Below, piece after piece: positions 11,745 through 59,440 of a stretch of 64,000 bases of DNA (within the stretch, counting starts at the first letter, position 1; each line of letters starts with the position of its first letter). The translations under genes and the position numbers were made by a program. Under the pieces are notes generated by a model. That model was not told where the DNA came from. It saw only the letters and a list, made by a program, of their open reading frames with translations, and ran no database searches. The stretch is from Chloranthus sessilifolius (lineage: Eukaryota; Streptophyta; Magnoliopsida; Chloranthales; Chloranthaceae): NCBI GenBank assembly GCA_021018995.1, contig CM037593.1:32997810-33061809 (forward strand). Reading direction: 5' to 3'.

Positions 11745-11915
11745 CCTGGTGCAACTAATACATGCGCCAAGGTAGCGGGACCCCTTTTTTACACTGGCGC
11801 AACTAATAGTTGCGCCAAGGTAAAAACTGAGGATTTAAAGCAAGCGTAACTAAATAGTTGCGCCAGTTAAAAATATGGGATTTTTGTACTGACGCAACTA
11901 GTACTTGCGCCAGTC
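11745..11915. promoter_or_regulatory. Internal array of TGGCGCAACTA palindromes, matching the LTR array
   Basis: Four copies of an inverted repeat with arms TGGCGCAACTA and TAGTTGCGCCA around one central base occur here. The copy at 11795-11817 is a perfect 23-bp palindrome. The others (near 11748, 11852 and 11900) differ at one to three bases, mostly at CpG sites. The same motif is arrayed in the LTR at 13728-13976. A regulatory role is inferred. Confidence 0.7.
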
Positions 11916-12412
11916 AAAAATGATACTCCAGACCTGATGATAGCAGGCAATAGCAGCCTGAAATGAGTCTCTTTTTTTGGTTTTTGTGGAGGCTAGGCTT
12001 CTGGCAACTGAGCTATTTTTTGGCGATCGGTTCTCTCCTCACCGCACCTAAAAGATTTGAGTCCGGTATAACTCGCTAGTGCGCTCCCCAAGGGTTTTAA
12101 GCTTTGGAATTGGAACCCACCTGATATACCTTCGGCGCAAGCGCTTTCTCAGATACTAGGTGGGCTGAGACTTTTCTGGATCATCACCACTAGAGGCTGC
12201 CACCATACTAAGACCCAGGTGGTTGTATGTTTGCCCAAACCCAACCCTTTAAAAATCTATCCCGTAAAAACAAATTAATTAAGCTCCCTATTCTTGATCC
12301 AATTTTAATTTTTCAAACCTCTTTTTATGGAAGTTTTCTTTAGTTCAAAGATCGGGGGTGATGACCCCGTGCCGCCACTACGGGTCGGCATCCACTATTG
12401 GGATATGAGCAT

Positions 12413-12600
12413 GAAAGTAGGCCCGCCAATTAGCTAAGGCACTTTAAATGACGGAAATTTAAAGGGAATTAAAAGATAAAGCGCAAGTAGGCTTGCCAAT
12501 CGGCTAAGGCACTAAAATGACGGAAAAGTAATGAAATAAAAAGACAATGCGCATGTAGGCCTGCCGATCGGCTAAGGCTCGTAAATGATGGGAAAGTAGG
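12413..12600. repeat. Three tandem copies of a 65-75 bp leader repeat
   Basis: Copies begin near 12413, 12485 and 12550. The shared core is GTAGGCNTGCCNATCGGCTA followed by AGGC and then AAATGACGGAAA. They lie just inside the primer binding site of element 1. The function is unknown. Confidence 0.7.
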
Positions 12601-12698
12601 GGTGAGAAAAAAACAAAAATAATACAAAAAAAATAGCAAAATGATTAGTAAAAATAAAAAATTAATGGGCAAATTTCAAGGAGAAGCTCTACAAGCTC

Positions 12699-12716
12699 TC
12701 CGCAGCAGAGTCGCCA
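12699..12716 (-). other. Primer binding site of element 1
   Basis: On the minus strand, TGGCGACTCTGCTGCGGA starts two bases after the LTR end. A TGG start two to three bases inside the LTR is the standard form of a tRNA primer site. The tRNA cannot be named from sequence alone. Confidence 0.8.
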
Positions 12717-13443
12717 TCTGTGCAATTGTGAGATTTTTTTACTATCCCGTCACGGCGATGCGCACTTTCATGAATATTTAGAATCACCACCCAGAGCTTT
12801 TTCTATCCCGGGAAATCTAAATCATTTTTATGAGCACCGAAGTGCTAAAAATATGACTCTGAATCCAGTTCACACCAAAGGCTCTTGGGTAGGGCTTCGA
12901 TTATCAATTGGGAAGGTGTTAGGCACCCGATCAACCCGCTTAATGCGCTCTTTACTAATGGCCAAAACTAAAATAAAATAAAAAAAAAAAAAAAATGTTT
13001 TCCTCTTACCCAAATGGGCCTTCAATCCTATTTGTGTCCCTCCATTCCTACCGAAAATTTGGCAGTGTAACCGCACAAATGGGAGGATAGGAAATTCCAA
13101 AAAGAGATATGAGAAGAAAGGGGAGAGTCGGAGCCCTCGGGCCCATGTAGCACCGTAGAAAAGCCTTGCGTGGCTTGCTTTTGATGAGCTCTTGAAGGTT
13201 TTCTATGGTGTGGAATAGGATTCTAACTCCTAAAGCTTAAAGCTAAGAGGTAGAGTGAGGGGTCTAGGGGGTGACACACACGTAGGCTAAGGGTTTTGGA
13301 TGCAAGAACAAGCTTGAAATGAGGTTGGGAGATTCTAGAATTTATGTGAAAATGGTGCACAAAAGGGAGGAAGAACTTCTCACTTTGAGCTCTTTCTCTC
13401 TTAAGCAAATTTCTCAACCCTTAAACCAAGGGGTGGGGGTTTT

Positions 13444-13451
13444 TATTTATA
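13444..13451 (-). promoter_or_regulatory. TATA box of element 1 LTR
   Basis: TATAAATA on the minus strand lies about 280 bases downstream of the LTR palindrome array, in a C-rich, otherwise non-coding context. Transcription of the element would start roughly 30 bases further left. The call is by motif and position. Confidence 0.6.
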
Positions 13452-13727
13452 GGAAATGGGTGGGTTAGGAGGGTGTTTAGATGCTAATCAAGATTAGGAA
13501 TTAGGTAATCTAACATCTAAGGTTTCCTAGGGTTTTTGAAGCCTTAAAATATGAGAGAAGGTCCTCCAATGGTGGATGATGGGTTGAGACTTCAGGCCAC
13601 TTAATGGGTTACAAATAGGGTGTAAAAGGGTGTAATAGAACTATCAAAATACACTCCAAAGGTGGTCAACAAGTCAAACCCCAATCATGAATTTTAGGGC
13701 AAAAAACTAGGGTTACTGTTCATATGC

Positions 13728-13976
13728 CTGGTGTAACTATTAGTTGCGCCAGGAAAATGTACAGTAAAATAGTTCTGTACAGTGTCAGGAAGTTGGCTTT
13801 GCGAGGTGGGGGCCCACACTGATACTGGCATAACTATTAGTTGCGCCAGGCTTAAATTCTGGGAAAAATGGCCTAACGCAACTAATAGTTGCACCAAGAA
13901 AAAAACAACTGGCGTAATAGTTGCGCCAAGCCATTTCTGGGGAGAAATAGCCTGGCACAACTATTAGTTGTGCCAA
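13728..13976. promoter_or_regulatory. LTR array of TGGCGCAACTA palindromes
   Basis: Five copies of the palindrome lie near 13729, 13828, 13872, 13909 and 13953. The copy at 13953-13975 is perfect with arms TGGCACAACTA and TAGTTGTGCCA, that is, with matching changes in both arms compared with the TGGCGC form at 11795. Other copies are truncated or mismatched. The array lies upstream of the LTR TATA box on the minus strand. Confidence 0.75.
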
Positions 13977-14355
13977 ATCCCCAGGAGGCTAACTCAAATT
14001 ACTCTTTTGCCCTCCGAGTTCAGGCTGGCATATCTTTTGGTGTATAACTCCGATTGGGGCGATTCTTGAATCATTGGAAAGCTGACAACTTTTACTTTTC
14101 AATAGCATGAGAGTTGATTATAGTAGAATGTCGTAGCTGGTCCTGGTGTACCACTCCTTTTCCAAGGCTCGGAAGGTTAGGTTTAGGTTCAGAATGGGTT
14201 CTAAGGGTGGGGATTGATTTCTAAAGGTTCGGGGAAGGTTTCTAAGGGATCTAGGGTGGTTCCTAAAGGTTCCATACATGTCATCAAAAGCTCTCAAGTG
14301 CACCTCTCTCGAAATGTGTTCCGATCAGGCCTTGGGCTAAATTTTGGTGTCTACA

Positions 14356-15290
14356 GTATGTATATCTTATCGTAATGGGACCAGGGGCGCAGTCAATGTT
14401 TCCTGTAAGGATACATGATGGGACATGAGAGAAGAATCTTGATCGAGATGGGATAAAAGGTGTGAGGATGTAGATTATGTCTAAATTTAGGTATTGTGCG
14501 CCTAGTACCTGTCGCTCAATCTAATTACACGCTTATTTTTGGCCGTGCGATTGGAAGTTTGAAGGGACTATTTACCCATTTGGATGTCTACGTGTGATTG
14601 GATTACACGCTCTGACCTAAGCGTGTAATTCAAACATCACCAGGTCACTATGCGGGCAACCTCTCATATTGTGCAGTGTAAGTGGATCGTGCAATAAGAT
14701 TGCACAGGTTATATTGGGCGCACAATCAGAGTGTCGCGCCACCTGTGCAGGCGATGATTTTATTGCGCACTCCATTTTGGGTGTGTGATTTAATTCATTT
14801 CTTGGCACGTGATTGAGTCCGTACTCTATATAAGCAGCAGAGTCTTTATTTCTTTTGCATCTCTCAGTTTAGTCTCGAGTTTTACCCTTTTCTGAATCCT
14901 TTATGCTCAGATATCCGTGTTTTTGTGATATTGGGTGATCCAATCATCTGATTGTGATGTTGTTTCTTTCGATATTCATCATTTTACGTGATCTTTGTCC
15001 TGAGGTGATGCTCGGGGATGATATTATTCTTAGAATGAGCGGTATTGGGAAAGAGGAGGCTAGCCTTCACATCGGTCCCTTTTAGGGAGCAGTGAAGGCA
15101 GCGTTGAGGAGGTGGCAGTGGAGGAGGTGAAGATAGCGGAAGAGAAGGTGTTATGAGTGGAGGGATGTATTCTCCAACCAATCCTTCACCTCTCCTTCTG
15201 AAGCCTCCAATTGGACGCTCTGCTTCTCGCTTTATGTCCCTTTCGGGTCTCCAATTTTCGTTTTGGGTTGTAGGTTAGGTTCTAGGTTTT
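14356..15290 (+). repeat. Direct repeat of 34060-35015
   Basis: This 930-base block matches 34060-35015 throughout in the same orientation, from GTATGTATATCTTATCG and GGGACCAGGGGCGC to the CGGGTCTCCAATTTT end. It holds the promoter and start of the plus-strand accessory unit of the element 2 family. The right-hand copy lacks element 1 at this point, so it shows the pre-insertion site. Confidence 0.85.
14515..14834 (+). promoter_or_regulatory. AATT/GCGC motif array and TATA box before an accessory unit
   Basis: At least nine sites of the type CTAATTACACGC, GCGTGTAATT, CGTGCGATTGG, GATTACACGC and GGCACGTGATTGAG occur in alternating orientation. They end at a TATATAAG box (14827-14834) in the context CTCTATATAAGCAGCAGAG. 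The same motif vocabulary fills the element 2 LTR at 31065-31520. The site GCACGTGATTGAGTC here closely matches GCACGTAATTGAGTC there. It faces the plus strand, opposite to gag-pol. Confidence 0.65.
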
Positions 15291-16784: not shown

Positions 16785-17170
16785 AGGGAATTATGCGCTT
16801 TACGTCGGGCGCATAACTAAATTAAGCGTCAGCATGAGCGTGCGCGTTTGAGGGGTTCGAAGGGTCATTGCGCTCCACTGCGCCGTCGTTTAACCAAATT
16901 AAATGCGTTGTATGGGATGCGAGATTAGGGCGACACCTAGTCATTGTGCGGGTGACCTTTGGCATTTATGTGCTGTGGTGTAGGCACTTTATATAATTAC
17001 ATGTTTGGCCTGTAGTGCGCAATCGGGGCGTCGGGTTATTTTGAGCTGGCGACAATTTGTTTACGCGCTCAAGGTTGGGCGTGTAATTAGGATTATGCGC
17101 GAATCTTGTGGTGCATAATTTTATTGAGCACGTCACTCCAAGAACACGATTTGACCGCTCTTTATATTTA
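16785..17170 (+). promoter_or_regulatory. AATT/GCGC motif array before the plant-mobile-domain gene
   Basis: Repeated AATTATGCGC, GGGCGCATAACT, AATTAAGCG, GCGTGTAATTAGGATTATGC and GTGCATAATT sites run up to a weak TATATTTA box at 17163-17170. A T-rich leader then precedes the ATG at 17341. The whole arrangement resembles 14515-14834. The TATA assignment is less certain than there. Confidence 0.55.
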
Positions 17171-28071: not shown

Positions 28072-28439
28072 GTCTGTTGGTGCACCTTTTTTCTGGGTTC
28101 CTTTCGGTCCCCGGGAATCAGTGGTCCAATTCTATCCTGAGCAGACTCTGGCAATGCGGTATTTTGAATGTTGAAAATAAGGGAGGATTTCTAGGAAGGC
28201 CCTTAGTTTGTTGCGATCATCAGCTACAGATATTTAACGACGCTGTAACATGTTGGTGATCATGCTTTGGAGTAGGGGTGTGGGTTACTTCTTTACTAAA
28301 TTACCGGCCTACCAACGTCAGTAGCACTAGCTCTTCTTGAAGTTTAGATAGTTTAGGTTTCTTATTATTGTTGTAATTCTGATTGGCTTAAGTTTCCAAG
28401 TTCTACTATGAGTCTAACTATGTGAATCGGTTGTGGTGA

Positions 28440-31051: not shown

Positions 31052-31064
31052 GGTTTTTTCCTAA

Positions 31065-31520
31065 TTACGCGCCCTGTGGGGTGCACTTAACTTGCAATTA
31101 CACGCCTTGTTTCAGGCGTTTAATTGAATTGTGCACCGGTTAGCTGGCACTTATTCGCTTTGAGTTGGTCAGTGACTCAGTGAGCGACCGACTGACTGGC
31201 TCAGTCGGGCTTCCTAGTTCTAATCACGTTAGGACTAATTGTGCGCTTACTTTGGAGTGCACAACCCAATTAAGCGCTTCATTCAAAGTGCTTAATTATG
31301 GAATTATAGCAGTCAAGGATTGTGAGACTAGGTCAGGCATAGGCCAATTGCGCGCCTATAATATGGCGCTCAATCCGATCACGCGTGCCACGTGGAGCAC
31401 GTAATTGAGTCTTGAGGTGGTCTAAAGGGAGGAGGTTTGGTCTGGAAAGGGACCGGTTACATGTTTGTGAGTTGGCGTGCAATCGAATTGCGCACATGAT
31501 TTTAGGCACGTAATTCAGGG
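31065..31520. promoter_or_regulatory. AATT/GCGC motif array in the LTR of element 2
   Basis: At least ten sites in both orientations: CTAATTACGCGCC, GCAATTACACGCC, GGCGTTTAATTG, CTAATTGTGCGC, CCAATTAAGCGC, CCAATTGCGCGCC, GCACGTAATTGAG, CGTGCAATCGAATTGCGCAC and others. They end just before the LTR TATA box. The same set occurs upstream of the antisense accessory units (14515, 16785, 34195) and in the LTR pieces at 35260-35670 and 54560-54625. Confidence 0.7.
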
Positions 31521-34145: not shown

Positions 34146-34194
34146 AGATGGGATAAAAGGTGTGATGATGTAGATTCTATCTAAAGTTGGGTAT

Positions 34195-39099: not shown

Positions 39100-40536
39100 T
39101 TAGCAGCATGGAGCAGACGTGGATGTAGAAGGAGCCGCGTCTGTGGTGGAATGGAAGACGGGTCCTCTATGGAAGGCGGTGCGTCCGGCCGTCCACTCCT
39201 CCTCCTGGGCGAGGTAGCGGCGGTAGTCGGTCGGGTAGATGTGGCGGAGGGTGTGGAACATCAAGAAGTCCATCCGTCGGTTCATCCGGTCGTTGTTGGC
39301 TTCCATACGAGCCAATACGTCCTCAATGGTAGGACCGGATGGAGCGGTGCGCCGGCGGTAGGATGAGGTGGGTGTCGCGGGCGCGGAGTGTGCAGGTGGT
39401 GTCGGTGAGGCTGCTGTGTGAGAGGTGGCCCTCTCTACTGAAGGCTCGGCTGCGGCAGGGTGTGCCCCACCCACGGGTGGGTCATGCTGAGGTGGTGGGG
39501 GTGGTGGCAGTGCTACTGCTGCTGCTGGGGCGGGAGCGGGACCCGGAGCGGGTAGGGTCCGCTTTAGAAGGTTGTAGCTACGGGTCCATGAAGACTTTGT
39601 AAATGTCTTCACGCGATCCGTAGCCCTCACCTCGTGAGGTGAGATGGTGTAGGATGGCTCGTTGGAGTAGCACTCCAACATGCTCGATATGAGACGAGCA
39701 TAGGGCATCTTTTCCTTGGGCCGCATGTTGCCCTTCATTAATTTGCCCTTGATGTACCTCATCCCTTCTAGGATGACCTTGGTAGCATCAAACCATCGGC
39801 CACAGAAGGCCGCGTAAAGTGCATGTTGTACTTTGTCGACGCGCTCAGTGTCGTGGCGCATCGGGTAAAGGTTGCATTTGATTATGGAGTCGAGCATCCA
39901 CATGTAGGGTGGAAGATCGACCCTCTTGATGGAAGTGCCCGACCCCTTCTTGCCATTTGTCATGCGGGTCATGACTTCCTCAAATCGAGGGTCCTCCTCG
40001 AAGGGTGGAAATAGGGTAGTCTCGGGGGTGAACTCGAGGTAGCACTCGAGCACCTCGTGAATGTGACGACGAGTGATCGTATAGAGACGACCCTCGATCT
40101 TGGTTATGATAGAGTCGTCGGTAGGGCCATTGGTTAACCCTTGGTAGAATAATCTCACCAATCTAGGGTAGTAGGAACCCCGGATTGGTTTGAGAAGATT
40201 GCCGAGACCGGCATTGTTTATGTAGTTTTGAGCCCATTGGGTCTCGCCCGGTACATTGGGATCGGTGAAAAGGGTAGGGTCAATGGTATATTCGACCTCA
40301 AAGGTCTTGGCAGCCCACCACTCGTTTGGTTGCTCTACGTTGGTGGGTGGTGGTGGCATGGGGGTGGATTCGGAAGACTACAGAGCGTGAAGCGCCGAAC
40401 CGGAGGTGGTCTCCGATTCCGACGGTGATGGAGTCCTCACCGGCGATGGGGTAGGTGGAGGTGGTGCGGCGTTCTTACGCCTAACCGGTAGCTTAGAAGT
40501 CGCCTTCTTCGAAGACAATCGGGTTTTGGGCGGCAT
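39100..40536 (-). pseudogene. Accessory ORF of element 3, putative plant transposon protein domain
   Basis: The ATG at 40536 (MPPKTRLSSKKATSKLPVRR, basic) gives 52 codons, an in-frame TAG at 40378-40380, then 425 open codons to 39100. Residues after the stop include RGSYYPRLVRLFYQGL, ITRRHIHEVLECYLEF, DLPPYMWMLDSIIKCNLYP and ALYAAFCGRWFDATKVIL, a layout like the putative plant transposon protein domain often seen beside gypsy pol genes. The C-terminal third is low-complexity Pro/Ala. It is in the same orientation as pol, after integrase, with its own TATA box and CT-rich leader. Apart from the single stop it is the best-preserved frame in the window. Function is unknown. Confidence 0.65.
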
Positions 40537-40741: not shown

Positions 40742-41420
40742 CTCATATATATAGCCCGCGGCTCGATTAATCGAAATTTAGAATCGATTAATCGAGATTC
40801 AAAACTAGGTTAAGCCGCGTAAAATCGATTAATCGATTTCCCAAATCGATTAATCGAAAGTCAAATTCGATTAATCGAAACCATTTCGATTAATCGAAAT
40901 CGCATCTATTTAAAATTTTAAAATTTTGAGCTCACTGGCGCGAGCCAGTCGATTAATCGAAATCCATTTCGATTAATCGAATTTCCACAATCGATTAATC
41001 AAATTTAATTTCGATTAATTGAAATCGTGCTGTAACTTCTAATTTTTCCAGAATTTGTTAAATTTTTTCGATTAATCGAATCCATTTCGATTAATCGAAT
41101 TTTCGAAATCGATTAATCGAAATCCACTTCGATTAATCGAAATCGTCCATTTGATTTCAATTTCTCGTAAGTCCCTTTAGTAAATCGATTAATCGAATTA
41201 TAGTTCGATTAATCGAAATTTCAAAATCGATTAGTCGATTCTAAATCGATTAATCGAGATTCCAATTCGATCAATCGAAATTGGTTTTCTATGTATATTC
41301 TAACTCTCCTTTGAATTTCCAGTCACTGGCACATGCCAGTCGACTAATCGAACAAAATCGATTAATCGAAATTCCAAATCGATTAATCAATTTGAAATTC
41401 GATTAATCGGTTTTGCCCTA
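40742..41420 (-). promoter_or_regulatory. Internal promoter of element 3: palindrome array and TATA box
   Basis: About twenty TCGATTAATCGA copies (40767-41410), again 19-21 bp apart in clusters, end at CTATATATATGAG (TATA core 40746-40753) on the minus strand. A leader of about 200 bases with CTTCTTCTTCTTC and AACCCTAG tracts then leads to the accessory ATG at 40536. CCTAAGGTAAAC near 40590 could be a splice donor. The array motif is the same as in both LTRs. Confidence 0.7.
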
Positions 41421-41553: not shown

Positions 41554-42480
41554 TCACGTCGTTGGAAACAAGGCTGGATATTGTTCTCTCACATCGGCCT
41601 CTCGTTCCCAAGTAGCCTCTTCTTTTGGATGATTGTTCCACCGAACAAGCACTAAGGGAATTACTTTAGTGCGCAGTACTTGTTCTTTTCGATCCAAGAT
41701 CTCCACAGGTTCCTCTATCATGCTCATGTCCTCACACATCTCTATAGGTTGCTTCCCTAACACATGAGACGGATCATTCACGTACTTCCTGAGCATCGAT
41801 ATGTGGAAAACATTATGTACTCGATCAAATAGCGGTGGTAAACCAATGCGATATGCAACTTCACCTACGCGTCCCAAAATTTCAAATGGTCCAACATAAC
41901 GTGGACTTAACTTCCCTCTCTTGCCAAATCGCATTACACCTTTCATAGGTGACACTTTTACAAACACGTGCTCACCCACTTTGTAGTCAATACTAGTTCG
42001 CTTCATGTCGGCGTAACTTTTCTGTCTACTCTGTGCTGTCTTCAACCTTTCTCTAATTATTCGAACGACGGTAGCGTTATCTTCAAGTAGCTTTGGTCCT
42101 AATACAAATTTCTCACCTGTTTCCTCCCAATTGAGAGGTGACTTGCATCGTCGTCCATACAGAGCTTCATACGGTGCCATGCCAATGCTCGTTTGAAAAC
42201 TGTTATTATATGCGAACTCGAGCATCGGTAGGTACTCATCCCAGTATCCTTGCATATCAAGCATGCACGCTCTGAGCATGTCTTCTATTACTTGGTTCAC
42301 TCGCTCTGTCTGTCCATCAGTTTGAGGATGGAAAGCTGAACTAAAGTCTAGTCGTGTTCCCATTCCTTCTTGAAATTTCTTCCAAAACTTGGACGTATAT
42401 AGTGGATCACGATCTGAAACTATGCTGCTTGGAATACCATGTAATCTTACAATTTCCTTCATGTATAACCGCCAATCTTC
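41554..42480 (-). pseudogene. Integrase core end, C-terminal domain and chromodomain of element 3
   Basis: 302 open codons from 42462: IVRLHGIPSSIVSDRDPLYT (second catalytic Asp), HPQTDGQTERVNQ (catalytic Glu region), FAYNNSFQTSIGMAPYEALYG, then GPFEILGRVGEVAYRIGLPP. The last 60 residues, including VLVRWNNHPKEEATWERE, match the Tekay-type chromodomain, which is thought to steer integration toward marked heterochromatin. Upstream it is joined to the rest of integrase through two small frameshifts near 42480-42530. Confidence 0.85.
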
Positions 42481-42483
42481 CCG

Positions 42484-43692
42484 TCAGATACGTAGTGTTA
42501 TGCGGCAAAAAGTCTTTGATTTGGCCAATCGATCTCCGACGACCCAAATGGCATTGTGTCTCTTGGCAGTACGGGGTAATCCAACAATGAAATCCATCGA
42601 GATCGATTCCCACTTCCATTCTGGTATTGGTAAAGGTTGCAATAGTCCCGCAGGATGTCTATGATCAACCTTCACTTGCTGACAAGTCAAACATCGTGAC
42701 ACATACTCGGCCACGTCTTGTTTCAGTCCTCTCCACCAGTAATTCTTTTTCAAATCTTGGTACATTTTGGTGCTACCAGGGTGGATAGCATAATTTGACT
42801 TATGAGCCTCATCAAGAATTGTTCGTCTTAGGTCGGCATTGTCCGGAATGCATAGACGGCCTTTAAACAACAAAGAACCATCTTCTTTTACTGAGAAGTC
42901 CGACCTGATGCCTTCACTCGCGTCTTGATGGATCTTTGTTAATGCCGGATCTTTCATCTGTAGGTCGTGGATATGCTCAAATATCACTGGCTTTACTGAT
43001 ATGTTAGCCAAAAAGGATCCAGTGTCCTTTGACTCAATGTTCGCATCATAGGTTGCCAGGTCTTCCAATAATTTCCATCGGTGCATACCCAAAATCAAAG
43101 AAGCTATCTGAGCTGAACCTTTTCGACTCAATGCATCGGCCACTACATTTGCCTTGCCAGGATGGTATTGTATAGAGCAATTGTAATCCTTGAGGAATTC
43201 CATCCATCTGCGCTGTCTCATGTTGAGCTCTTTCTGTGTAAATAGATATCGGAGGCTCTTATGATCGGTGAAAATTTCAAAAGTCTCACCATACAAGTAA
43301 TGTCTCCAAATCTTTAGCGCAAAAATGACTGCTGCCAGTTCCAAGTCATGAGTCGGGTAATTTTTCTCGTGTTCTTTCAACTGTCTTGATCCGTAAGCTA
43401 TCACCTTCTTGTGTTGGTTGAGCACACAACCAAGGCCATTGTATGACGCGTCGCTGTACACGGCGTATCCTCCACTGCCTGAAGGAATCGCTAATACTGG
43501 AGCCGAAGTGAGTCTCGTTTTGAGTTCTTGAAAACTCTTCTCGCATGCCTCACTCCACTCAAACCTTGAATCTTTTCGTGTCAGCTTTGTGAGAGGTCCC
43601 GATATCTTTGAAAACCCCTCAACGAAACGTCGATAATAGCCTGCTAAGCCCAGAAAACTTCGGACATCGGCACTGTCTTTGGCTGCTCCCAT
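42484..43692 (-). pseudogene. RNase H and integrase N-terminal half of element 3
   Basis: A 402-codon frame. It begins at the RT thumb ([18 protein letters not shown]), then RNase H ([45 protein letters not shown]), [10 protein letters not shown], then the integrase zinc-binding [19 protein letters not shown] and CLTCQQVK. The integrase core starts at [11 protein letters not shown], with the first catalytic Asp. It breaks after DRLAKSKTF by frameshift. The RNase H looks intact. Confidence 0.85.
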
Positions 43693-44654
43693 TTGACTAC
43701 TGCTTCTATCTTTGCTGGATCTACAGTGACACCATGCTTTGAGACGACATGTCCCAAAAAGCTAACTTCTTCCAACCAAAACTCACACTTGCTGAGTTTG
43801 GCGTACAGTTGGTGTTCACGTAGCGTCTGTAGAGCAATCCTCAAATGTTCTTCGTGTTCCGTCTTGGATTTGGAGTATATTAGTATGTCATCAACAAACA
43901 CTACAACGCAGTAGTCCAAGTGTGGTTTAAACACTCGGTTCATCAGATCCATAAATGACGCTGGAGCATTCGTTAATCCAAACGGCATCACAAGGAATTC
44001 ATAGTGTCCATACCGTGTCCGGAAAGCTGTCTTCTGAATGTCCTCAGCTTTGACTCGCAACTGATGATACCCAGATCTCAGATCGATCTTAGAAAAATAC
44101 CTTGCTCCTTGCAGTTGATCGAATAGATCGTCTATTCTAGGCAAAGGGTAGCGGTTCTTCACAGTGAGTTTGTTCAATTGCCGATAGTCAATGCATAACC
44201 GCATTGACCCATCCTTCTTCTTGACAAACAAGACCGGTGCTCCCCATGGAGACACACTCGGTCTAACAAACCCCTTGTCCATAAGCTCTTATAGTTGTTC
44301 CTTCAATTCCTTTAACTCAGCGGGAGCCATTCTATAAGGTGCTTTCGAAATAGGCTCCGTTCCTGGTGCTAAGTCAATGGCGAATTCTACTTCTCTTTCT
44401 GGAGGTAATCCAGGCAATTCTTCTGGAAACACGTCAGCGAAGTCCCGCACAACTGCTATCTCAGAAATGACGTTCTTTTCTTCCTTGTCCTCCTTTAAGA
44501 AAGCTAAGTATCCACTGCAACCCTTTCTGATCATTTTCTGGCCCATCACGAGATCAATGGCACAGATGACGACCTCACTCCTTGAAACCGAAATGATCTT
44601 CTTGTGTTGGGTCTGAAAATAACTACCTTGTTCTTGCAATCGACGGTTGCACAA
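43644..44654 (-). pseudogene. Reverse transcriptase of element 3
   Basis: The lead-in FADVFPEELPGLPPEREVEF and AIDLAPGTEPISKAPYRMAP is followed by an in-frame TAA at 44289-44291, at a place where relatives have Gln. It then reads [71 protein letters not shown], and an intact catalytic [13 protein letters not shown] frameshift at about 43690 moves to the RNase H frame. Only these two lesions separate it from an open frame. Confidence 0.85.
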
Positions 44655-44985
44655 TGCTGCGCCAACCAGTCCATGCCAAGGATCACATCAAACCCTTGCA
44701 TGTCTAACAGTATCAACTTTGCTTCCAATTCATGCACTTCTAGGTCTCGAACTTCTACAATGATGGATTTGCAAGCTAACTCCGTGTCTACTAACTCTCC
44801 AGTCGGAATAGACACAGATAGGACGAAATCCAACGCCTCTGGTATAATCTTCATCTTCTTAGCGAAACGTGGAGTAACGAATGAGTGGGTAGACCCGGGG
44901 TCTATCAACACTCGAGCGTCATATCCACGGAAGCATCCTTTTTCATATATATTTAGAGTACCTATAGTATACATACACACACACA
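44546..44985 (-). pseudogene. Protease of element 3
   Basis: VLIDPGSTHSFVTPRFAKKM carries the D-P/S-G active-site triplet in the form usual for Tekay/Del elements (DPG). It is followed by DMQGFDVILGMDWLAQHCATV, the conserved second half. It overlaps the start of the RT frame by a frame change near 44650. The first residues listed from 45001 (MMCKLLCVCM) are probably not part of the protein. Confidence 0.8.
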
Positions 44986-45147
44986 ATAATTTACACATCA
45001 ATTTACACCCTCAATTTATACACCGCTTTTCGTATACAAAAGAAAATAATCTATTCAGTTCGTAATGTATGCTCCTTCTCTATCTAAAGTTTTTAATGAA
45101 ATGAAAATTTTTCTTTAATTTTAAAAGGAATCTCACCTTGGATGACG

Positions 45148-46536
45148 TCATGCACGTTCCCTGCTTCCTGAGCAAAGGATCGTGACATTTCTCCTCGAAC
45201 GATCGGGTTTCCTTGCTTGAATTGGTCGTGGTGCTGCAACTGAAACCGTCTTTCTTTTATCTGTCTCGGGGCAATCCTTGATCAAGTGGCCCACCTTGCC
45301 ACATCGGAAACAGCCCCTAGTTCCCAATCTACAGTCCACTGTTCTATGAGGCTTGCCACACTTTGCGCAAGTCTCCCGAGGTGCGGAAGAAACAGTACGA
45401 GAACCCTGTGTGATAGTGGCACCAGTAGACATGGCAGGGCTCTCATAGCGAATAGGTCTCCCCGACGCAAGTAATGGAAACCTCTGTTGATGTTGTTGCT
45501 GCTGTTGCGCCGGTCTTCCGAAACCCCCTTGAAACTGTGGTCTCTGATTCTGGCCCATGAACCTCGGCTTTTTGTTCACCGGTTCATAGTGCGCCGTTCT
45601 TCCTTGTTCGTTTCCTCCTCTCTGCTGCTCCCTCTGTCGATATCTGTTATTATTTTCCTCTTCTACAACTAACGCCTTGCTCATGACCTCTTCATAGGTC
45701 CTCAGTTGAAATGGAGCTACGCCTCCCCTAACCTCAGGCTTCAAACCTTGCTGAAACCTCTTGGACTTCATCACTTCAGAAGCGACGTAATCCGGAGCAA
45801 AACGGGCAAGTCGTAGAAACTCTACCCCGTATTCTCTCACTGTCATTCTCCCGTGTACTAACTATAAAAATTGTATCTCTAGTTGGTTTCTCACCACTTC
45901 TGGAAAATATTGTTTGTTGAACTCCTCAACAAACTCCTCCCAAGTCCAAGGCAACTCTGGAGTCTCCTGAGCCCGAGTCCGTATCACGGACTTCCACCAA
46001 GGCCCAGCCTCCCCATCCAACATGTAAGCTGCCCATCTTACACTCTCATCTTCCGTGCAAGTTAGCACGCTAAAGACTTTCTCCATTTCCATCAGCCAAT
46101 TCTCAGCGGCCATCGTGTCTGCCTGCCCAGAAAATGAAGGAGGTCTCATCCTCCTAAACTCTGTAAATGATGAGGGCACAGGCAACGCAGGTCCTACAGG
46201 TGGTGTAGGTGGCTGCTGTTCTCTCGACGCATGAGCTGCAAAGGATGCGGCTTGTTGTGCCATGCCAGCTGCCATAGTCTCCATAGTGTGCATCATCCTT
46301 TGTCGCTCCTCTCTATCTTCTTGTCTTTCTCTTACTCTTTCTTGCTCTCTTAGATCTTGATCCTGATGATCTCGATCCTCTTCCTCATGCTGTCTGCTAC
46401 TACTGCCCCCTGGGGCCTCAGCACCTCCTAAAGGCACTCTATTGGTAGGAGAGATGAAATCATCTCCACTACGCAAACTCCTTTGATGGCCTCCCCTTGG
46501 TCGGCCTCTCCCTCTAGCTGACATTTGCGGCTGCAT
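45148..46536 (-). pseudogene. Gag of element 3
   Basis: Starts at the ATG at 46536 (MQPQMSARGRGRPRGGHQRS, basic). A helical Glu/Arg stretch follows, then the gag core: FRRMRPPSFSGQADTMAAEN, WAAYMLDGEAGPWWKSV, FNKQYFPEVVRNQ. An in-frame TAG at 45862-45864 separates it from MTVREYGVEFLRLARFAPDY. Two zinc knuckles follow: CAKCGKPHRTVDC and CFRCGKVGHLIKDC. It forms the particle and packages RNA in intact relatives. Confidence 0.9.
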
Positions 46537-46625: not shown

Positions 46626-46629
46626 ACTA

Positions 46630-49277
46630 TGACAGCCCGGATTTCGGCACCCCGAAACCCGTGCCATCAGCACGATCATCTTGACCGTGCCCCTTAGCTA
46701 AGCACGGAACACTGGTATATCAAGCATTGCAATAAAATAATAAACGAAATTGCGGAATTTGAATCTATATTAATTAACTCTCAGAAAGACAGTTCTACCC
46801 TCATGCCTCTGCATGAATGGAGAACCGATCCGAACCATCGATGATAGCAATCATCACGGATGGTTCGTCCCAAAAGAATAATCCAAAACCCCATATACAT
46901 GGTTTTAAACAAGATCAAGGCTGGACATACCAAGCCGTACAAAATCTCTCCAAGAACTCTCAAAGTGGCACAACGGAGTCCTCTAGAAGAAGTCCTCTGG
47001 AGGTGGCTCCAACTCTTCACGCACAAGGTCCGACTCGAGGATCGATCTCCTGAAGGCGGCAAATGCTAGTAGTGGACCTGTGACGTATAGTCTATAGGGT
47101 GAGCTACATCCTAGCTCAATAGGAACAAACACAGTTTGAACATATAAATTATAACTCACATGTATTCCATGATATGCCATGCATGATGTATCTATGCTTG
47201 TTAATGAAAGCAGTATTAAAAGCATTTCGTTTCTTGTTGATTTCTTATAGTTTCATTTACCCATGAATGATGCTGAGAAGGCCTAAAGCAAAACTTAAAC
47301 TTTTAACTTAAGTAGTCCCCGAGCAATATAGCATCGAGCCCCGATGAGATACCCTTCATCGTCATCTATATAGACAGCTTTTAATGTATTCCCCGAATAC
47401 CATATAGTACCCAAGCCCCTTTCCCCGGGATTGGTGGCGGGTTTCACTTGTCTCAATCAACACCCCTGGGTGTGTTTTATTATGTAGCGGATAAGCCTCG
47501 ACCGGCCTACGGTTTCAGCCAGATCGGGTCACGGATTTCGCCGTGTCGGGCCGTGGATATCCCGCCACGCCGGTGGGGTAACCTATCAAACCTCAAATAA
47601 CAAAAATATCGGTGCCTTACATATAGTTATTCACCGTGTAAGTGTGCTATCTTATATCAGTTAGGCCCTATCAAACATGATTCAATCTTTGGATACATCC
47701 CTGGGATGTATCCATTTACTTGCATCACACCTGATGCTCTTATCTCTTTACTTCTTCATCCCCTGGGGATGGCTCATTAGTTTACTCTTATGAATATCAC
47801 ACACACACACTTTTCACAATTCTTTAAGCAGTAAAAATATTTGAATGGAAATTTATATCACTACATACATGCTCTTGTAAAATAAGGTACATGTTCAAGG
47901 TGTTCCCTACCTCAAGTCTTCATTTGTTCAATGCATCAAGGTCCCACGTGGCTCCTTGTGCACTAGTCCACACGTACCACCTATGGTACCACATATGAGT
48001 GAAACACATCACAAAGGATGCAATAAAGAAGGTATAAGATCCCCCAAGAATCTTAAAGTCAAACCTAAAAGTCAACATAGTTTATCTCAGTCGATTAATC
48101 GAATTCCAAAATCGATTAATCGAATCTGATTCGATTAATCGATTTCCAAAATCGATTAATCGAAGGTCAATATCGATTAATCGAATCAATTTCGATTAAT
48201 CGAAATTCTCCTTTTCGCAAAGTCCATTCTCAGTTCGAACAGTCGAGTTTTCATTCGATTAATCGAATCCAATTTCGATTAATCGAAATTCTTCTTTTCG
48301 CAAAGTAAATTCACTCAATAAATGAGTTTTCATTCGATTAATCGAATCCAATTTCGATTAATCAAATCCTTCTTTCGCAAAGGAGACACTCATCAATAAA
48401 TGAGTTTCACAAGTTGATTAATCGATTCCAAATCGATTAATCGAAAACTAAACTCGATTAATCCAAATCCCATTTCGATTAGTCGATTTTCATAAGTCAT
48501 TTCCTTCAACCTCGGGGTCCACTGAGAGTTCTCAGTCGATTAATCGATTCCCAAATCGATTAATCGAAATCCAAAGTCGATTAATCGAAATCCAATTCGA
48601 TTAATCGAAATCGGGGTCCTCTGACTTTTCAACTTCCTGGCCAATTTCGATTAATCGAAACCCAATTTCGATTAATCGAAATTGTCAGATTCAGCCCCTT
48701 TCGAGCTGTTCTTCCCAATCTTTTTCCATACCTTTTTCCTCTATTTTTCTAAGCCATTATCCTATGATTTAACCCACATTTAACTGCAACTTAACCCCTA
48801 TAATCTATGCATCTTATTTACAAAAATTTTACCTTGAATAGATCTCAAGTTGATTTCAAATCTAGGGTTGGAAGGCTAGGGTTCCAGCTTTGGTTTCTAA
48901 CGGATTCCTTGCGTTGAATCAGCCTCTTTAATGCTTGAATCCTTCTTCCAATCACTCACAATAACTCTTGCTTGATCACCCTCTTTACTCCTCTCTCTCT
49001 CTTCTTTACTCCTCTCTCAACAACTCAAAACTCTTGATCTTAGGGTTATTAACTCTTTTTATCCTCTTCCTCACTTGTGTGTTGAGCACATACACCGCGG
49101 TAGGTGTATGCGACTATACCTTCGCAACACACACCACATAGGCATTCTATTTCTCACATCTCATCCGTTCATCACACTACATACTAACTGTTGGACTTCC
49201 ATTTGGTCAAACCTATGACCGATCGGGCATGGATCCCGCGGTCATAGTTTAGTGTGATTTTTTTCGGGTTATTATCA
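46630..49277 (-). repeat. 5' LTR of element 3
   Basis: It ends GGGCTGTCA at 46630 on the minus strand. At its other end the expected GGGTTATTACA reads GGGTTATTATCA (49268-49277), so the terminal bases are altered. It has the same internal order as 36074-38687, with a better preserved palindrome array at 48091-48690. Confidence 0.9.
48091..48690. repeat. TCGATTAATCGA palindrome array in the 5' LTR of element 3
   Basis: The first six palindromes (48091-48205) have centre spacings of 21, 19, 21, 21 and 19 bp. Many are extended to TTCGATTAATCGAA. The palindromes are better preserved here than in the 3' LTR copy (37530-38105), as would be expected if loss is by random mutation after insertion. 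Confidence 0.85.
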
Positions 49278-51520: not shown

Positions 51521-51532
51521 TACTAGTGGCGA

Positions 51533-54628: not shown

Positions 54629-56704
54629 TGTTGTGGAAATGGAGTGTGCTGATTTAGTGTGTAATGGTAAAAGCAAAATAAAATCAAATTAAACTAAAGG
54701 GTGGATTTAGCACAACTATAATCTCCTAGACCTACAAGATACAGGGCTGTTATAGTGAGTTTTGATAGGTAAGTAAGGGTATGTCCTTAGGGAAATGTGC
54801 ATAAACTATGGTAAATCTCCAGATCTGTAATAGATCTAGCACTCTATCCGAAATTAAGCTATACTAAAATAGGAAAGAGGAGAGGTTTTGGGTTTTTATC
54901 ACTACGAACTACATAAATTAAATGCAGTTGATCCAGATTTTAAGAAAATACAGAAGTGAAGGAAAATGGATTAAAAATCAAAGGATGGAGAGCAGTGGCT
55001 AGGAATTTGGTCTTTCACTGAGAATCAAATGAATCAAAGGCAATGCTTAGATCAGATCTGCAACAATCCTTCATCTGGCTACAAGCTCCCCAGGTTTAAC
55101 CCTGGCAGAGGCATGGTATAAGGATCTGATCTTAACTAGAGAATTAGAGCAATCCTAAGGCTATGACCTGCTCACTTGAATGGTAACAGATCATTCTAGA
55201 GATTTTTTTTAGCCAATAGTATTGATTCGAACAGGTTAACCATTATAGATGCTGTGAATGCCAGGCTACAAGCTCCCCATTTCTGGCTGGCCCACAGGAG
55301 TATCTAAACTAGGAAAATTAAATACAAATAAATAAAGTATAGCTCAGAATTCACTTTAAATTCTACAATTCCATTGCAATGTCACTACTTACAATGTTGT
55401 ACTTAGATCTACAACCTGTGCAGCATCCATTCCCCTACAAAGCCTTTAAAACTCTTGATTACAACTCATGACCTCACCCTAGCTACTGGAGAAGTTTTAG
55501 CCAACCATAATTGGCTAAAAGTGAGGAAGAAGAAGAGGGAAAAATTAGAGGGAAAAATGAATTCGAACTTGGCTCTGGCTCTCCCAATTTCTAGATAATT
55601 TTCAATGTGATTCTCCTCTATTTATACGTTTTTATCAGATCTATTTCAGCCAATCAGAACTCAAAGGAATAATGCAGTTATGATGATGTGACAGATCTCT
55701 CTTCTAGAATCTTTTCTCCTATTTGGTTCACAACTGACAAGTACATGTGAGGTAGTTAGAGTTCCCGCTCAAGCTCAGTTGAATACTAAAAATACCCCCA
55801 GGGGTCGCTGTCGCGCCTTGGATCATGTGCGCGAAATCCGGAAGTTGTAGATACCGAAGAAGGGCCATGACAAGTTCCCAAAATGAATGTTGAGAGGTTT
55901 AGGGAACTTCTCGACAGCTTCCTAGTCTGCTTGCTCTATATTTTGATAGGTTTGGAAAACCTCTCACTGAGTTGAAGTGCACAAGTCGATAGGATTGGCA
56001 TATCTCGACAGGATTGAAATGGCTCTTGATACCTTCTGTTCAGTTCTTTGTTCATCCTGTCGACAGGTTACAATCAACCTGTCGACTTGGTGAAGTGTTT
56101 GACAGGTTGGGGATCATCTCGACAGGTTCTGAAAGGTCCTATCGAAAGCTTCTCTCGATCTGCTCGATAGGTTCAGCTGAACCTCACGACTTCTCCTACA
56201 CCTTTAGGTAAGGTGTCAACAGGATTCTTTTACTGCAAGCACAACCTATTGACAGCAACTGAAACCTTGCAATAGCTTCATGGATCCTCTCGGCAGATCG
56301 GCATTTGAGCTTCAGAACTTCTTGACAGCTTCTGCCTTGAGTTTCTTCAGCTGGCACCTATCTTTGGTGTGTTGTCTTCCATCCGTTAGCACTCAACAAC
56401 CTCTTGGTGGGTTCAATCTATCTTCTTTGCAACTGTGCTTGGTCTCAAACATGCCTTGTTGATCCCATGACCTTTTCGTGAATTTATAAAGCTTTGTTTG
56501 CATGACTGACAGGCCTTTGGACTGTTGTGAACACATGATGAGGAGTAGATTGCTTCTTTGGCCTTTTTAGGTGGATATCTGGACTAAGGCTAGATTTTAT
56601 TACTTATCTACAAAACATACTTAAAACGCATTATTAGTTAGCTCAAGGATCCAACAAAGGTTAGGTTAAGAGGTAAAAAATGGTATTTTTCACTACTTAA
56701 CACA
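54629..56704 (-). repeat. 3' LTR of element 6 (2076 bp)
   Basis: On the minus strand it runs from TGTGTTAAGTAGTG (56704) to TTTCCACAACA (54629). The polypurine tract lies directly to its right. It contains CCTGTCGACAGG-type palindromes (55870-56330) upstream of a TATAAATA box (55619-55626). The rest, 54640-55600, is R/U5-like sequence with no coding signal. Confidence 0.85.
55619..56330 (-). promoter_or_regulatory. LTR promoter of element 6: palindrome array and TATAAATA
   Basis: Repeated CGACAGGTT, CCTGTCGAC, CTCGACAGG and CTCGATAGGTT sites, with the perfect palindrome CCTGTCGACAGG at 56056-56067, lie 240-700 bases upstream of TATAAATA (55619-55626, context CGTATAAATAGAGG on the minus strand). 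The same array type and the same TATA core recur at 59131-59440. Confidence 0.65.
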
Positions 56705-56718
56705 CCCCCAAACCTAAG
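56705..56718 (-). other. Polypurine tract of element 6
   Basis: The minus strand reads CTTAGGTTTGGGGG directly before TGTGTTAAG of the LTR. A second, similar tract (ATAGGTTTGGGGGTGTGG) lies at 58287-58306. Confidence 0.8.
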
Positions 56719-58651
56719 CTTTGCTAGTCCCGGACAAAGGAGAAAGTAAAAACAATTAACCTACAAAATTAGATGCCACTTTCATAGGGAACACGGGTGC
56801 ATTTAGCATATGCATAAAACCTTTTAAACCCCTAGGTGATCCCTATTGGAGGAGTGAAGTCTCAGTTAATGTTAACGCAACATGTTGAGAACAAAAATCA
56901 AGCCAAAATAAAATTCATTCCACATCTTGTTCCTTTAAACATAGCATTATTTTTTATTTATTATTATTTTTTTTTTAAATCTAAAAATATGCTGCAATTC
57001 CTTCACAATCAATCAGTTCATGTCAAGGCATTTTATCCAAAATTTAATACATAGCTAACTATTAAATTGAGAATTTTTTTTTTTTTTTATGATATAACCC
57101 CTAACAAACTTAATTTCAGATCCAAAGCCCACAAGGTTGTCACTCAGAGTGAAACTAGAAGGGTGCATCAGTTCACACAGCTCAAGAGCAGTTACAGTCC
57201 TCAAATAGGACTGCAAGCATGAGCATAGGCATTGCTCTAATTTCTGAAAATTTTCTAACTCTTTTACCATAGATCAGACAAATCTTTGTCTCCACATGAC
57301 AGCTCAATCCATTTCAGATCAGTGAGGTATTTTATTGGGTTGTAATGTGGCTTATGGGTGAAGTTTATGAAGAATAAAAGGATGGAATGGGATTCAAAAT
57401 TGAGAAATCGAAAAGGTAAGGAGGTGATTCATGACTTCACCTTCTTCTTTTCAGCACATCTTTATTTTCTTTTTGTACTTTCAGACATGAAGTGATCAGC
57501 TTCTTATCTTCTTGTAGATTTTCAAATGAAGTGACTTCTCTTTTCTTCAATTTTTTTTTTCATATGCCCTCCTTTTGTAATATATGTTTTTTTCTTTTTT
57601 ATGGGCGGGCATGCCACAATTACACATCACTCTTGCCTTCACATGTATTTTCTTCTTTTACCAAATTGTCAAACCTTGCTCCTCTAACCTCTTCAATTCC
57701 TTCTCCTTTACCTTCTGAAATCTCAGAGTGAGGGTCAGGCTGTATCAGGTCATAGAAGTTTTGGGTTCAAATTTTCTGATTTTTATCAAAGAAAAGCTTG
57801 GATTTCAAGGCTCAAATAGTGTGTATCAAGGGCAGTTCAAAGGTAAGGATATTTTAAGCTCAAACTGTCCAAGGAATGGCCTTACTTCATGTCCTCAATG
57901 TCAAGAATACTGTCAAGCTGTTTCAACTTGGATTTGCCTAACTTCTAGTGATTAAAGCTAGATCCAATCAGTCGTTAGAGCAGAAAAAATTTGCCAAGAC
58001 ACTCTTGAAGAAAAAAAAAATTTCTCAGGCCCAAATCTCACTAGGTATGGTCTGCCATCAAGTTTTCTGGGGAGTATCCTCACAGATCTTCTCTTACTTC
58101 AAGGTCACTAAGTGCTAATTTTTGAATAAAAATTCCTGACATTTGCTTCATAAAAGTGTTAGAACTGCAATATGAATATTAAAAGGTTTTTATTTTCCTT
58201 AAAAATTCAGGTGGGAATTTACTTTATTTTCTTAATTTCTATTGAACCTTGCTGCACTACTATTAACTATCCATTGGCATACCTTGCCACACCCCCAAAC
58301 CTATGAGGAGCAGTGTCCTCACTGTGTCAAAGATAAATGTGGGTGTGCAGCAGGGTAAAAACAGAGATATACAAAAGAAATAAAACAAACACTGTACATT
58401 CATATCAAAGAAACAAATCAGAACAAAACGAAATTACATTTAAATCCAAAGAATATATACAATGGAGAAAACCTAGACATATTTATAAGAAAACCTAGAC
58501 ACATTCTAACTTAGACATGACTCTAGCAGCAACCTCCACAGCCTCGAACAAAATATCTCCTCTAAAAAGAATTGTGCCCCTGGCTCAGGGATTTCCTCAA
58601 CCTGCTGCTGCTGGAAGAGGAACTGCAAGCCAGGGGTGGAGATGAGAGGGC
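56719..58651. other. Long 3' untranslated zone of element 6
   Basis: AT-rich sequence without recognisable coding. ORFs at 57492-57731 and 57728-57955 match nothing I know and are rich in Phe/Ser from T-rich DNA. A second polypurine-like tract at 58287-58306 is followed on the minus strand by sequence unlike the LTR. Athila elements are known for long regions after pol. Confidence 0.55.
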
Positions 58652-58900
58652 TTAGGAGGACTGAAGTAGCACAGGTGGTGGTGGGGGGGAGGAGGGTGGG
58701 GAGGGAGGTGCAGGTGGTTCTATCTTCCTTTTCTTTTTCTTTCTTCTATTCTTTTGCTTCTCCTCCTTGACCAAAATCCTTTAGACTTCCTCATATTCGT
58801 CCCACAGGAATTGTAAAGGGTCTGGTTTTGGTGATGGTGGTGGAGTCCCCCCAACTGGTTCAAATTTTATTGAAACCTCAATGGGTTTGTCGTCTGCCAT
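58652..58900 (-). pseudogene. Small accessory ORF of element 6
   Basis: The ATG at 58900 (MADDKPIEVSIKFEPVGGTP) leads, through one in-frame TAA at 58781-58783, to a stop at 58652, about 82 residues. It has a Pro-rich part, a basic NRRKKKKRKIEPP stretch that could act as a nuclear signal, and a Pro/Ser tail. It is preceded by a leader of about 230 bases and a TATAAATA box. No family is recognised. It is not the envelope-like ORF of some Athila elements as far as I can see. Confidence 0.4.
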
Positions 58901-59130
58901 GGTTGTGGATAGGGAACTGAGGAGGTTAAACGCGAACGACTATGAAGGAGGTGAACTAGGCTAGTATTTAAAACATAGGAGGTGGGATGCGTATCGTTAT
59001 ATTAAAATTTCTCATCTTCCCAAGTCATAATTGCTAAAATGGTATTGGTGGTGGGTGGCAAGTCGGTTACGGAAAGTGTGGAACGTTGTGCGATAATATG
59101 GGGATTGGTACTGCGGAGTGCATGGTGGTT

Positions 59131-59440
59131 TATTTATAGAAATGGGAGTTAATGTAGGGAGACAAGAGGAAATAATGTTCAGACACGGAGGAAAAGGAGC
59201 TTCGACAGGATTGGGGGAGCAGTTCGTCGACAGGTTGGTACAACTTGTCGATGAGTGAAATACTGGTGAACCTCTCGAGAGGTTCACACAATCCTGTCAA
59301 TGGGTCTAGGTTACCAACTGTGTTATTTCGAGAAGTTCACCCATCCCCTCGATAGGTTCTATGAACCTAGCGAGAATTACAACCAAAAACCCTTATAAGC
59401 GATCGATAGACAACTTCAGCGATCCTATCGACAGACAATT
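59131..59440 (-). promoter_or_regulatory. Internal promoter of element 6: palindrome array and TATAAATA
   Basis: CGACAGGATT, GTCGACAGGTT, CTTGTCGATG, CCTCGATAGGTT, CCTATCGACAG sites and a perfect 22-bp palindrome at 59266-59287 (arms GTGAACCTCTC/GAGAGGTTCAC) precede TATAAATA at 59131-59138 (context CTATAAATAAACC on the minus strand). The array motifs and the TATA core match those of the LTR (55619-56330), although this region is not part of the LTR. Confidence 0.6.

Follow-up and report, generated by a model that had tools for sequence, protein, structure and literature searches.

Palindrome arrays in described plant transposons

The closest described parallel to the locus examined here, a 64-kb window (64,000 nucleotides, the whole stretch of DNA analysed) of nested Ty3/gypsy retrotransposons from Chloranthus sessilifolius (assembly GCA_021018995.1, C10:32997810-33061809, within a 2.17-Gb genome of 32 contigs), is offered by the Sireviruses. 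Thirteen Sirevirus elements carry family-specific palindromes in the long terminal repeat (LTR) ahead of its TATA box (Bousios et al. 2010, BMC Genomics 11:89, PMC2829016). In the portions of that report used here, extra copies of the palindromes are recorded for nine of the 13, those with env, with 77 of the 79 extras lying before env, and none are recorded in the linker of the four elements without env; the feature is called Sirevirus-specific, Ty1/copia elements are compared and an internal promoter is supported. The layout has been known since 2010 for the Sireviruses; four elements of the window (elements 1, 2, 3 and 6) extend it to Ty3/gypsy cases and add a geometry of the sites, and we found no report of such LTR and internal palindromes in Ty3/gypsy elements in the open-licence literature searched. 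We give an even chance to a reading in which a palindrome array and its TATA box form a module common to the LTR and an accessory gene, read by a dimeric protein that is possibly the accessory protein itself.

The likeness to the Sireviruses goes beyond the plan. A family recovered elsewhere in the genome by its protein domain (loci L061 and L062) has a CGG...CCG core in its palindrome ACGGACGTCCGT, several AGGGGGAG before the LTR, and palindromes both in the LTR before a TATA box and before an accessory gene; element 3 has both arrays, the TATA box of its LTR being unclear. The CGG-CCG core is, however, absent from the palindromes TCGATTAATCGA of element 3, CCTGTCGACAGG of element 6 and GCCTCGCGAGGC of a second domain-found family, and from the motifs of elements 1 and 2. 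A second difference is that the plan occurs here in Ty3/gypsy elements, chromovirus-like in the case of element 3, Athila-like in element 6 and Tat-like with an antisense gene in element 2, and a third lies in the helical spacing of the sites of element 3 and their near-constant distance to the TATA box. The labels Tat, Athila and Sirevirus are used on the strength of domains and characteristic marks rather than of a tree.

The VANC/VANDAL system of Arabidopsis, in which a protein of the element binds a short motif arrayed at high density and the motifs turn over between families (PMC5735166; PMC10398659), resembles the present case in its element-specific motif arrays in non-coding regions and their turnover between families. 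In the parts of these sources that bear on the comparison, the VANDALs are DNA transposons, and the VANC21 motif is 9 bp long, in one orientation and non-palindromic. Binding and demethylation are shown there for VANC, whereas the elements described here are known from sequence alone. The domains differ too, being DUF1985/DUF287 in that system, whereas the accessory open reading frames (ORFs) scanned here give PF20167 or PMD in Pfam.

Among LTR retrotransposons, gene23 of Grande is an accessory gene that lies after pol, ahead of the 3' LTR, under a promoter of its own (PMC7264820), and Retand carries antisense ORFs with predicted DNA binding (PMC11963269). The parts of these two papers at hand mention no LTR-matched palindromes, and element 2 has a PMD domain, not a TRP28 domain. 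The Athila PF20167 accessory ORF of sunflower and the Tekay 5' aORF (PMC11728184) offer likenesses in PF20167, a nuclear localisation signal and the position after pol, whereas element 3 joins a chromovirus-type integrase end to a PF20167 gene after pol. The word 'palindrom' has no occurrence in the main text of that paper.

LTR palindromes recur inside the elements

For each array, words were learned from the LTR alone and the rest of the window was then scanned in 300-bp bins. The internal regions of elements 1, 3 and 6 were each set against 1000 dinucleotide shuffles, and genome-wide specificity was gauged by the exact count of a motif against that of its reversed string. A 7-base word test is blank on element 2 because its sites are too degenerate, so a half-site matrix 10 bp wide, with two LTRs as its only training set, was used there. 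With these models the densest non-LTR matches fall at the very spots where the initial annotation had placed internal copies, and recurrence of the arrays outside the LTRs is confirmed for all four elements. The top non-LTR bin for element 1 starts at 11751 with 33 marked positions (runner-up 6), that for element 3 at 40951 with 113 (6 outside its arrays) and that for element 6 at 59201 with 7 (next 3). For element 2, the matrix for the half-site AATTACGCGC ranks three bins first outside its training LTRs, at 16851 (11 sites), 14501 (9) and 34201 (8), followed by one at 54551 with 6 sites.

Counts of whole sites agree with this. The palindrome of element 1, TGGCGCAACTA-W-TAGTTGCGCCA (up to 7 mismatches in 23), occurs four times in the LTR and three times internally, at 11747, 11795 and 11890, against a shuffle mean of 0.01, and has no match in any of 543 other windows. 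Element 3 has 62 sites in the window at up to two mismatches, all of them within its two LTRs or at 40763-41410, with about 2.6 expected, and element 6 has six internal sites against 0.11 expected. The observed numbers in the internal regions of these three elements were reached in none of the 1000 shuffles made for each.

Element 3 couples a phased array to a constrained accessory gene

Element 3 lies on the minus strand between a 5' LTR at 46630..49272 (20 TCGATTAATCGA-like sites at 48091-48679) and a 3' LTR at 36072..38685 (19 sites at 37531-38098), the pair being 95% alike. Its gag and pol pieces at 41554..46536 give Retrotrans_gag, zf-CCHC, RVT_1, RT_RNaseH, H2C2 and SH3_Tf2-1, so that the order runs from the 5' LTR through gag, zinc knuckle, reverse transcriptase (RT), RNase H and integrase zinc finger to an SH3/chromodomain end (SH3_Tf2-1 at 87.6 bits, well over its cut-off; Chromo at 24.1 bits, cut-off 25.1). 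This RVT_1 and gypsy-type pol is not accompanied by a Ty1/copia RT. After pol come an array of 23 sites (41410-40763), the TATA box TATATATATGA at 40743..40753, whose first T stands 21 bp past the start of the last palindrome, a leader, and the accessory gene at 39100..40536, which begins with the ATG at 40536 and a basic N-terminus, matches PF20167 at 39.3 bits (cut-off 45) and is followed by the 3' LTR. The window copy of this gene has a stop after 52 codons and is then open over 40377-39100. A missed LTR was considered for the internal array and rejected, as the LTR ends are fixed by the 95% pair and the array lies outside them.

The exact palindrome occurs 241,617 times in the genome, about once per 9 kb, against 55 for the reversed string; therefore the element 3 family is probably a large share of the genome. 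A search of the same genome with the accessory protein gave 54,993 first-look candidates, the best 100 of which were scored; besides the window's own, 99 matches have 90-97% identity. In each of 20 loci fetched from across this ranking, 18-28 sites make up the internal array and 15-24 the LTR array. A sample of 50 records, six of which repeat loci already included, leaves 44 distinct copies, counting that in the window. Locus L025, without the start anchor, lies outside the 50 records, and L055 was excluded from the ORF and divergence counts (43 used) and kept in the recount of TATA offsets. The initial annotation had proposed relatives as a check on the sharing of motifs, and both arrays are present in every one of the 44, with 16-29 internal and 13-24 LTR sites in the stretch examined. 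Counted from the base at which the last palindrome begins, the internal TATA box starts at 21 bp in 43 of them and at 20 bp in the remaining one.

The gene behind this promoter-like region is under purifying selection. Its frame stays open over 490 aa or more in 31 of the 43 copies with a start anchor, and the copies show 27% synonymous and 5% nonsynonymous differences (pooled ratio of nonsynonymous to synonymous change, dN/dS, 0.17; pair median 0.16). The C-terminal columns 480-609 differ from the remainder, the ratio of the corresponding proportions (pN/pS) being 0.53-0.96 there versus 0.06-0.35 elsewhere, and lengths vary too; the region may be a rapidly evolving determinant of specificity or a linker.

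The sites themselves are phased. Spacing peaks at 19-22, about 41 and about 63 bp, neighbouring sites thus lying some two turns of the helix apart, and the 10-11 bp period of the arrays was equalled in none of 1000 random placements for the internal array and the 5' LTR and in two of 1000 for the 3' LTR. Upstream of the last site the commonest offsets across copies are 21, 62, 83, 104, 123, 186, 206, 228 and 248 bp, near multiples of 20.7 bp with some rungs vacant.

An envelope function for the accessory gene was also considered and set aside, there being no transmembrane-like stretch in the three proteins checked (top 19-residue hydropathy 1.00-1.10). Searches further afield gave no relatives: none of 8000 scored candidates from a set of 5.8 billion proteins reaches E 0.001 with the accessory protein, a PDB sequence search with the accessory ORFs of elements 3 and 2 has no match up to E 1, and viral contigs searched with a pol piece yielded two pattern matches and no relative. 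The sole viral contig with paired TCGATTAATCGA (4-30 bp apart) is IMG/VR IMGVR_UViG_3300027861_000195 (L001), with one pair at 5021-5057.

Families found by domain carry further palindromes

A Pfam PF20167 search of the genome gave 150 scored matches out of 13,856 candidates, and five loci were read (L060-L064), all picked by protein domain and not by motif. The promoter region is present in four of them, representing two families, and each of the four has an array of a new palindrome. In the first family, L061 and L062 have ten ACGGACGTCCGT sites (up to three mismatches) ahead of the accessory ATG, mostly 20-22 bp or multiples apart, with steps of 75 and 81 excepted or approximate; in L061 TATAAA lies 23 bp from the last site. 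The same palindrome recurs in the apparent 3' LTR, with two sites in L061 and four in L062, 23-24 bp before TATAAA, this LTR being recognised once per locus by a polypurine tract followed by TGTAAG rather than as an LTR pair. Genome-wide, exact ACGGACGTCCGT occurs 9,483 times against 14 for the control. L060 belongs to the same family by protein (79-86% identity); its promoter is missing and two decayed LTR sites are left. It is also the only locus of the five that shows RVT_2, the Ty1/copia RT trait. On its reverse strand, at 563-2484, this RVT_2 RT runs directly into the PF20167 accessory ORF with the array gone, as if a template switch had fused pol to the accessory gene.

In the second family, L063 and L064 have seven and eight GCCTCGCGAGGC sites (up to three mismatches), the last of them 25 bp before TATAAA, which is followed by the PF20167 gene; exact GCCTCGCGAGGC occurs 704 times in the genome against five for the control. 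The promoter side was read in this family, so the match to an LTR rests on the family of L061 and L062. Across L060-L064 the TATA-like boxes stand 22-25 bp from the start of the last site. The L063 protein is 27% identical to the accessory protein of element 3 over 169 residues; the proteins of L060-L062 have no BLAST match to it but share PF20167.

Element 2 places its half-sites before an antisense PMD gene

Element 2 consists of several nested, decayed copies, whose LTR ends are only partly paired; the 3' LTRs of elements 1 and 2 have not both been located. An element 2-type LTR array lies on the minus strand at 31065..31520, with AATTACGCGC half-sites in inverted pairs 20 bp start to start and a TATA box in CCTATAAAAA at 31053; a second is on the plus strand at 35260..35690, in an LTR that starts with TGTAGACACC at 35016. 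Three non-LTR arrays are all on the plus strand. That at 14490..14820 is followed by TATATAAG at 14827 and then by a leader with homology to that of the PMD gene; a paralogous one at 34190..34560 has the TATA-like box TAAATAAG; and the third, found with the half-site matrix at 16785..17140, stands ahead of the antisense PMD accessory gene itself (plus strand, ATG at about 17340, PMD domain ORF 18101-18628, PF10536 at 35.6 bits against a cut-off of 34.9). Between the block 34058-35015 and 14358-15278 the identity is 81%.

A non-LTR assignment of the blocks at 14.5 and 34.2 kb is supported by their homology to the PMD gene leader at 17.2-17.35 kb (64% identity, E 3e-10, and 63% identity, E 6e-9). 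As missed LTRs they were rejected, since they match that leader and match the LTRs solely within the arrays and in one 25-bp stretch (E 0.009). The TATA-like boxes begin 21 bp from the start of the proximal half-site in the LTR at 31.05 kb and 22 bp from it in the 14.8-kb block. Genome-wide, AATTACGCGC-N4..30-GCGCGTAATT occurs 61 times against none for the reversed string, and of the 50 places listed 48 have a gap of exactly 10, although 4 to 30 were allowed, with letters that vary; such a fixed 10-bp gap with variable letters points to protein binding.

Two repeats adjoin these sequences. At 28077-30820 a 1.37-kb unit stands twice in tandem (83% identity), with shorter repeats within, next to an element 2-type LTR. 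The element 2-type LTRs also have, upstream of the palindromes, a second repeat of about 80 to 250 bp with CTATTATTTCAG-like words, in variable copy number (31555-31869, 35080-35233 and 54030-54632).

Elements 1 and 6

The 5' LTR of element 1 occupies 12719..14355 on the minus strand, where it starts with TGTAGACACC, its ends being set by eye, and adjoins a primer-site-like sequence CCGCAGCAGAGTCGCCA at 12700-12716 (plus strand), which is presumably of the tRNA-Arg type. The LTR array is at 13728..13976 (minus) and a TATA-like CTATAAATA at 13444-13452 (minus). The internal array of three palindromes at 11745..11915 (minus) is in the leader between primer site and gag, about 0.8 kb beyond the primer-site-like sequence; a missed LTR was rejected here too, since the LTR as set by eye stops at that sequence. 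Element 1 shares with element 2 the antisense ORF, placed between pol and the 3' LTR, that is a trait of Tat/Retand elements, their PMD ORFs being on the plus strand and pol on the minus strand; that of element 1, at 2-607, reaches 33.0 bits, just under the cut-off of 34.9. Just left of the window (L065), plus-strand exon-like blocks with intron-like borders and a terminal stop can be recognised by eye, which suggests another spliced antisense accessory gene ahead of this PMD ORF.

The four elements had been annotated as unrelated. This does not hold for elements 1 and 2, whose pol proteins are 44% identical (best stretch 50%), compared with 34% for element 1 against element 6 and 29% against element 3. 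The two differ in motif while the LTR and internal copies agree within each, as coupled change predicts.

Element 6 has its LTR array of CCTGTCGACAGG and variants at 55870..56330, a TATA box of the LTR in CGTATAAATAG at 55618-55628, an internal array after pol at 59185..59440 and an internal TATA in TCTATAAATA at 59140, all on the minus strand; an accessory ORF in broken pieces, one of them rich in lysine and arginine, follows at 58506..58939 (minus). We presume an Athila affinity from a resemblance of its integrase end. The sites commonly follow each other at 19-23 bp, other steps occurring as well, and exact CCTGTCGACAGG occurs 989 times in the genome against 29 for the reversed string. The first listed places on chromosome C1 are at 69 and 76 Mb for CCTGTCGACAGG and GCCTCGCGAGGC and within the first 0.4 Mb for TCGATTAATCGA and ACGGACGTCCGT; the CCTGTCGACAGG and GCCTCGCGAGGC families look confined to one part of C1.

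A proposed shared module and the protein that may read it

We propose that each element has two copies of one cis module, an element-specific palindrome array that would end, in the best cases, 20-25 bp before a TATA box and whose sites would be spaced in several families by 20-21 bp or multiples. The LTR copy would drive the genomic RNA. The internal copy would drive an accessory gene located after pol and before the 3' LTR, in sense orientation in element 3 and the Sirevirus-type relatives and antisense, as the PMD gene, in element 2. Both promoters would be switched on by a dimeric, sequence-specific nuclear protein bound to the sites along one face of the DNA. The likeliest candidate for this binder is the accessory protein that the element itself encodes (of PF20167 or PMD type), which would give a loop of self-recognition that could also counter silencing, as VANC does in the VANDAL transposons. 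We infer promoter activity, binding, the identity of the binder and anti-silencing alike from the arrangement of the DNA. An internal promoter that shares its sites with the LTR is very probable. Dyad symmetry, the fixed gap with free letters, helical spacing in element 3 and the TATA distance would all fit a dimeric binder beside the core promoter. That the accessory protein is this binder is a serious possibility, which we rate slightly below even; in its favour are the three different palindromes at a like TATA distance before genes of one domain family, the joint change of motif in LTR and interior that separates elements 1 and 2, themselves related, the basic N-termini, and the VANC precedent.

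A number of observations weigh against this proposal, and they also limit what the initial annotation had read from the window. Its succession of array, TATA box and accessory ORF in elements 2, 3 and 6 stands for element 3 and, as far as the TATA box and a PMD-type leader, for the 14.8-kb block of element 2; in the 34-kb block the TATA-like box is altered, the array at 16.8-17.1 kb and the 35-kb LTR of element 2 are off the usual TATA distance, and in element 6 the TATA box is likewise off that distance and the downstream ORF is in pieces. A recurrent architecture with different motifs, and an accessory promoter built from LTR sites, are supported by element 3 and the two PF20167 families, with the LTR read in one of these; the promoter claim is weak for element 6, and neither claim extends to element 1, where the internal array has no clear TATA box and no accessory ORF layout, the usual TATA distance is absent and the spacing of 48, 79, 95 and 97 bp has no 20-21 bp step. 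A forecast that the element 1 palindrome would stand upstream of its antisense PMD ORF failed, none being present in the 1,101 bp left of the window. The LTR array of element 3 itself has no clear TATA box after it, L062 has an altered box at the place equal to that of L061, and the steps of L063 and L064 are irregular (22 to 100 bp), the 20-21 bp spacing being absent. The best 100 matches were the source of the 44 element 3 copies, which, being relatives, are not independent proof of function. Six other env-bearing Sireviruses are without the boxes in the relevant part of the Sirevirus report (PMC2829016).

The arrays could instead be bound by host transcription factors, each family having captured a different host site and the accessory gene using a like type of promoter; this we consider unlikely. 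Arrays ahead of TATA boxes do resemble ordinary promoters, and the palindromes loosely resemble ACGT-core, CGCG and auxin-type sites. Comparison of the Sirevirus motifs with a database mainly gave sites of stress-related factors, according to the part of the report that deals with them (Bousios et al. 2010, PMC2829016). However, a single host genome holds six different palindromes, three of which precede genes that share one domain, at a like TATA distance, and motifs differ between related families, although host factors could accommodate all of this.

It is quite improbable that the internal array is passive, an LTR part duplicated inward or spread in satellite-like fashion and functionless. 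The LTR and internal arrays of element 3 share their spacing order near the TATA end, which suggests common descent, and 3' regions of Retand often have tandem repeats, as stated in the available part of PMC11963269. Tandem duplication of a 20-21 bp unit can also produce phased repeats, the LTR spacers of element 3 are 63-64% alike versus 47-48% for shuffled letters, and its register is lost beyond about 250 bp from the TATA box (302-304, 323-324, 344, 442 and 462), all of which count against our proposal. On the other side, the sites resist divergence and CpG decay while the spacers drift. Between copies of element 3, sites at up to two mismatches differ by 2.7% (internal) and 3.1% (LTR) and spacers by 14%, a roughly fivefold lower change in sites although they contain CpGs (LTR sites 4.2% when three mismatches are allowed), with the proviso, again unfavourable to us, that the alignment of arrays may favour site-to-site pairing and so lower the apparent divergence of sites. 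Inside the internal array of the window copy, likeness is 95% among sites and 53% among spacers, versus 49% for shuffled letters. The sites are thus conserved against a background of drifting spacers, and the LTR shows some hint of duplication. In all 44 copies, moreover, the array stands directly ahead of the TATA box and of a gene on which purifying selection acts, and the same placement is seen in other families with other motifs.

A role of the palindromes as nucleic-acid structures (hairpins, cruciforms) or small-RNA targets rather than protein sites is just as improbable, since, although LTR palindromes of maize Sireviruses are reported as small-RNA mapping hot spots in the pertinent part of PMC5311732, the 12-bp palindromes have no loop, the near-invariant gap of element 2 encloses varying letters and the spacing of element 3 tracks the DNA helix in register with the TATA box.

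Implications for plant retrotransposons

A module read by an element's own accessory protein would bear on questions raised for plant LTR retrotransposons at large. The function of their antisense additional ORFs is treated as an open question in the relevant part of PMC7264820, and whether additional ORFs shape epigenetic state is left open in that of PMC12844716. Host PMD proteins have been linked to a promoter motif in Arabidopsis, direct binding being untested in that work as far as its consulted part goes (PMC7156037). We tentatively suggest, at less than even confidence, that both LTR superfamilies run a common form of self-recognition, in which PF20167, PMD and kindred proteins would bind the palindromes of their own LTR and their own gene promoter and so activate or de-silence their own family. 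If this is true, each protein would co-evolve with its palindrome, as in the VANC system; this would account for the retention of accessory genes and for the role of the additional ORFs, and the families would hold a set of naturally diversified 12-bp specificities. Should each accessory protein bind its own palindrome only, a family-specific loop of activation or anti-silencing would span the range from Mutator-type DNA transposons to the abundant LTR retrotransposons.

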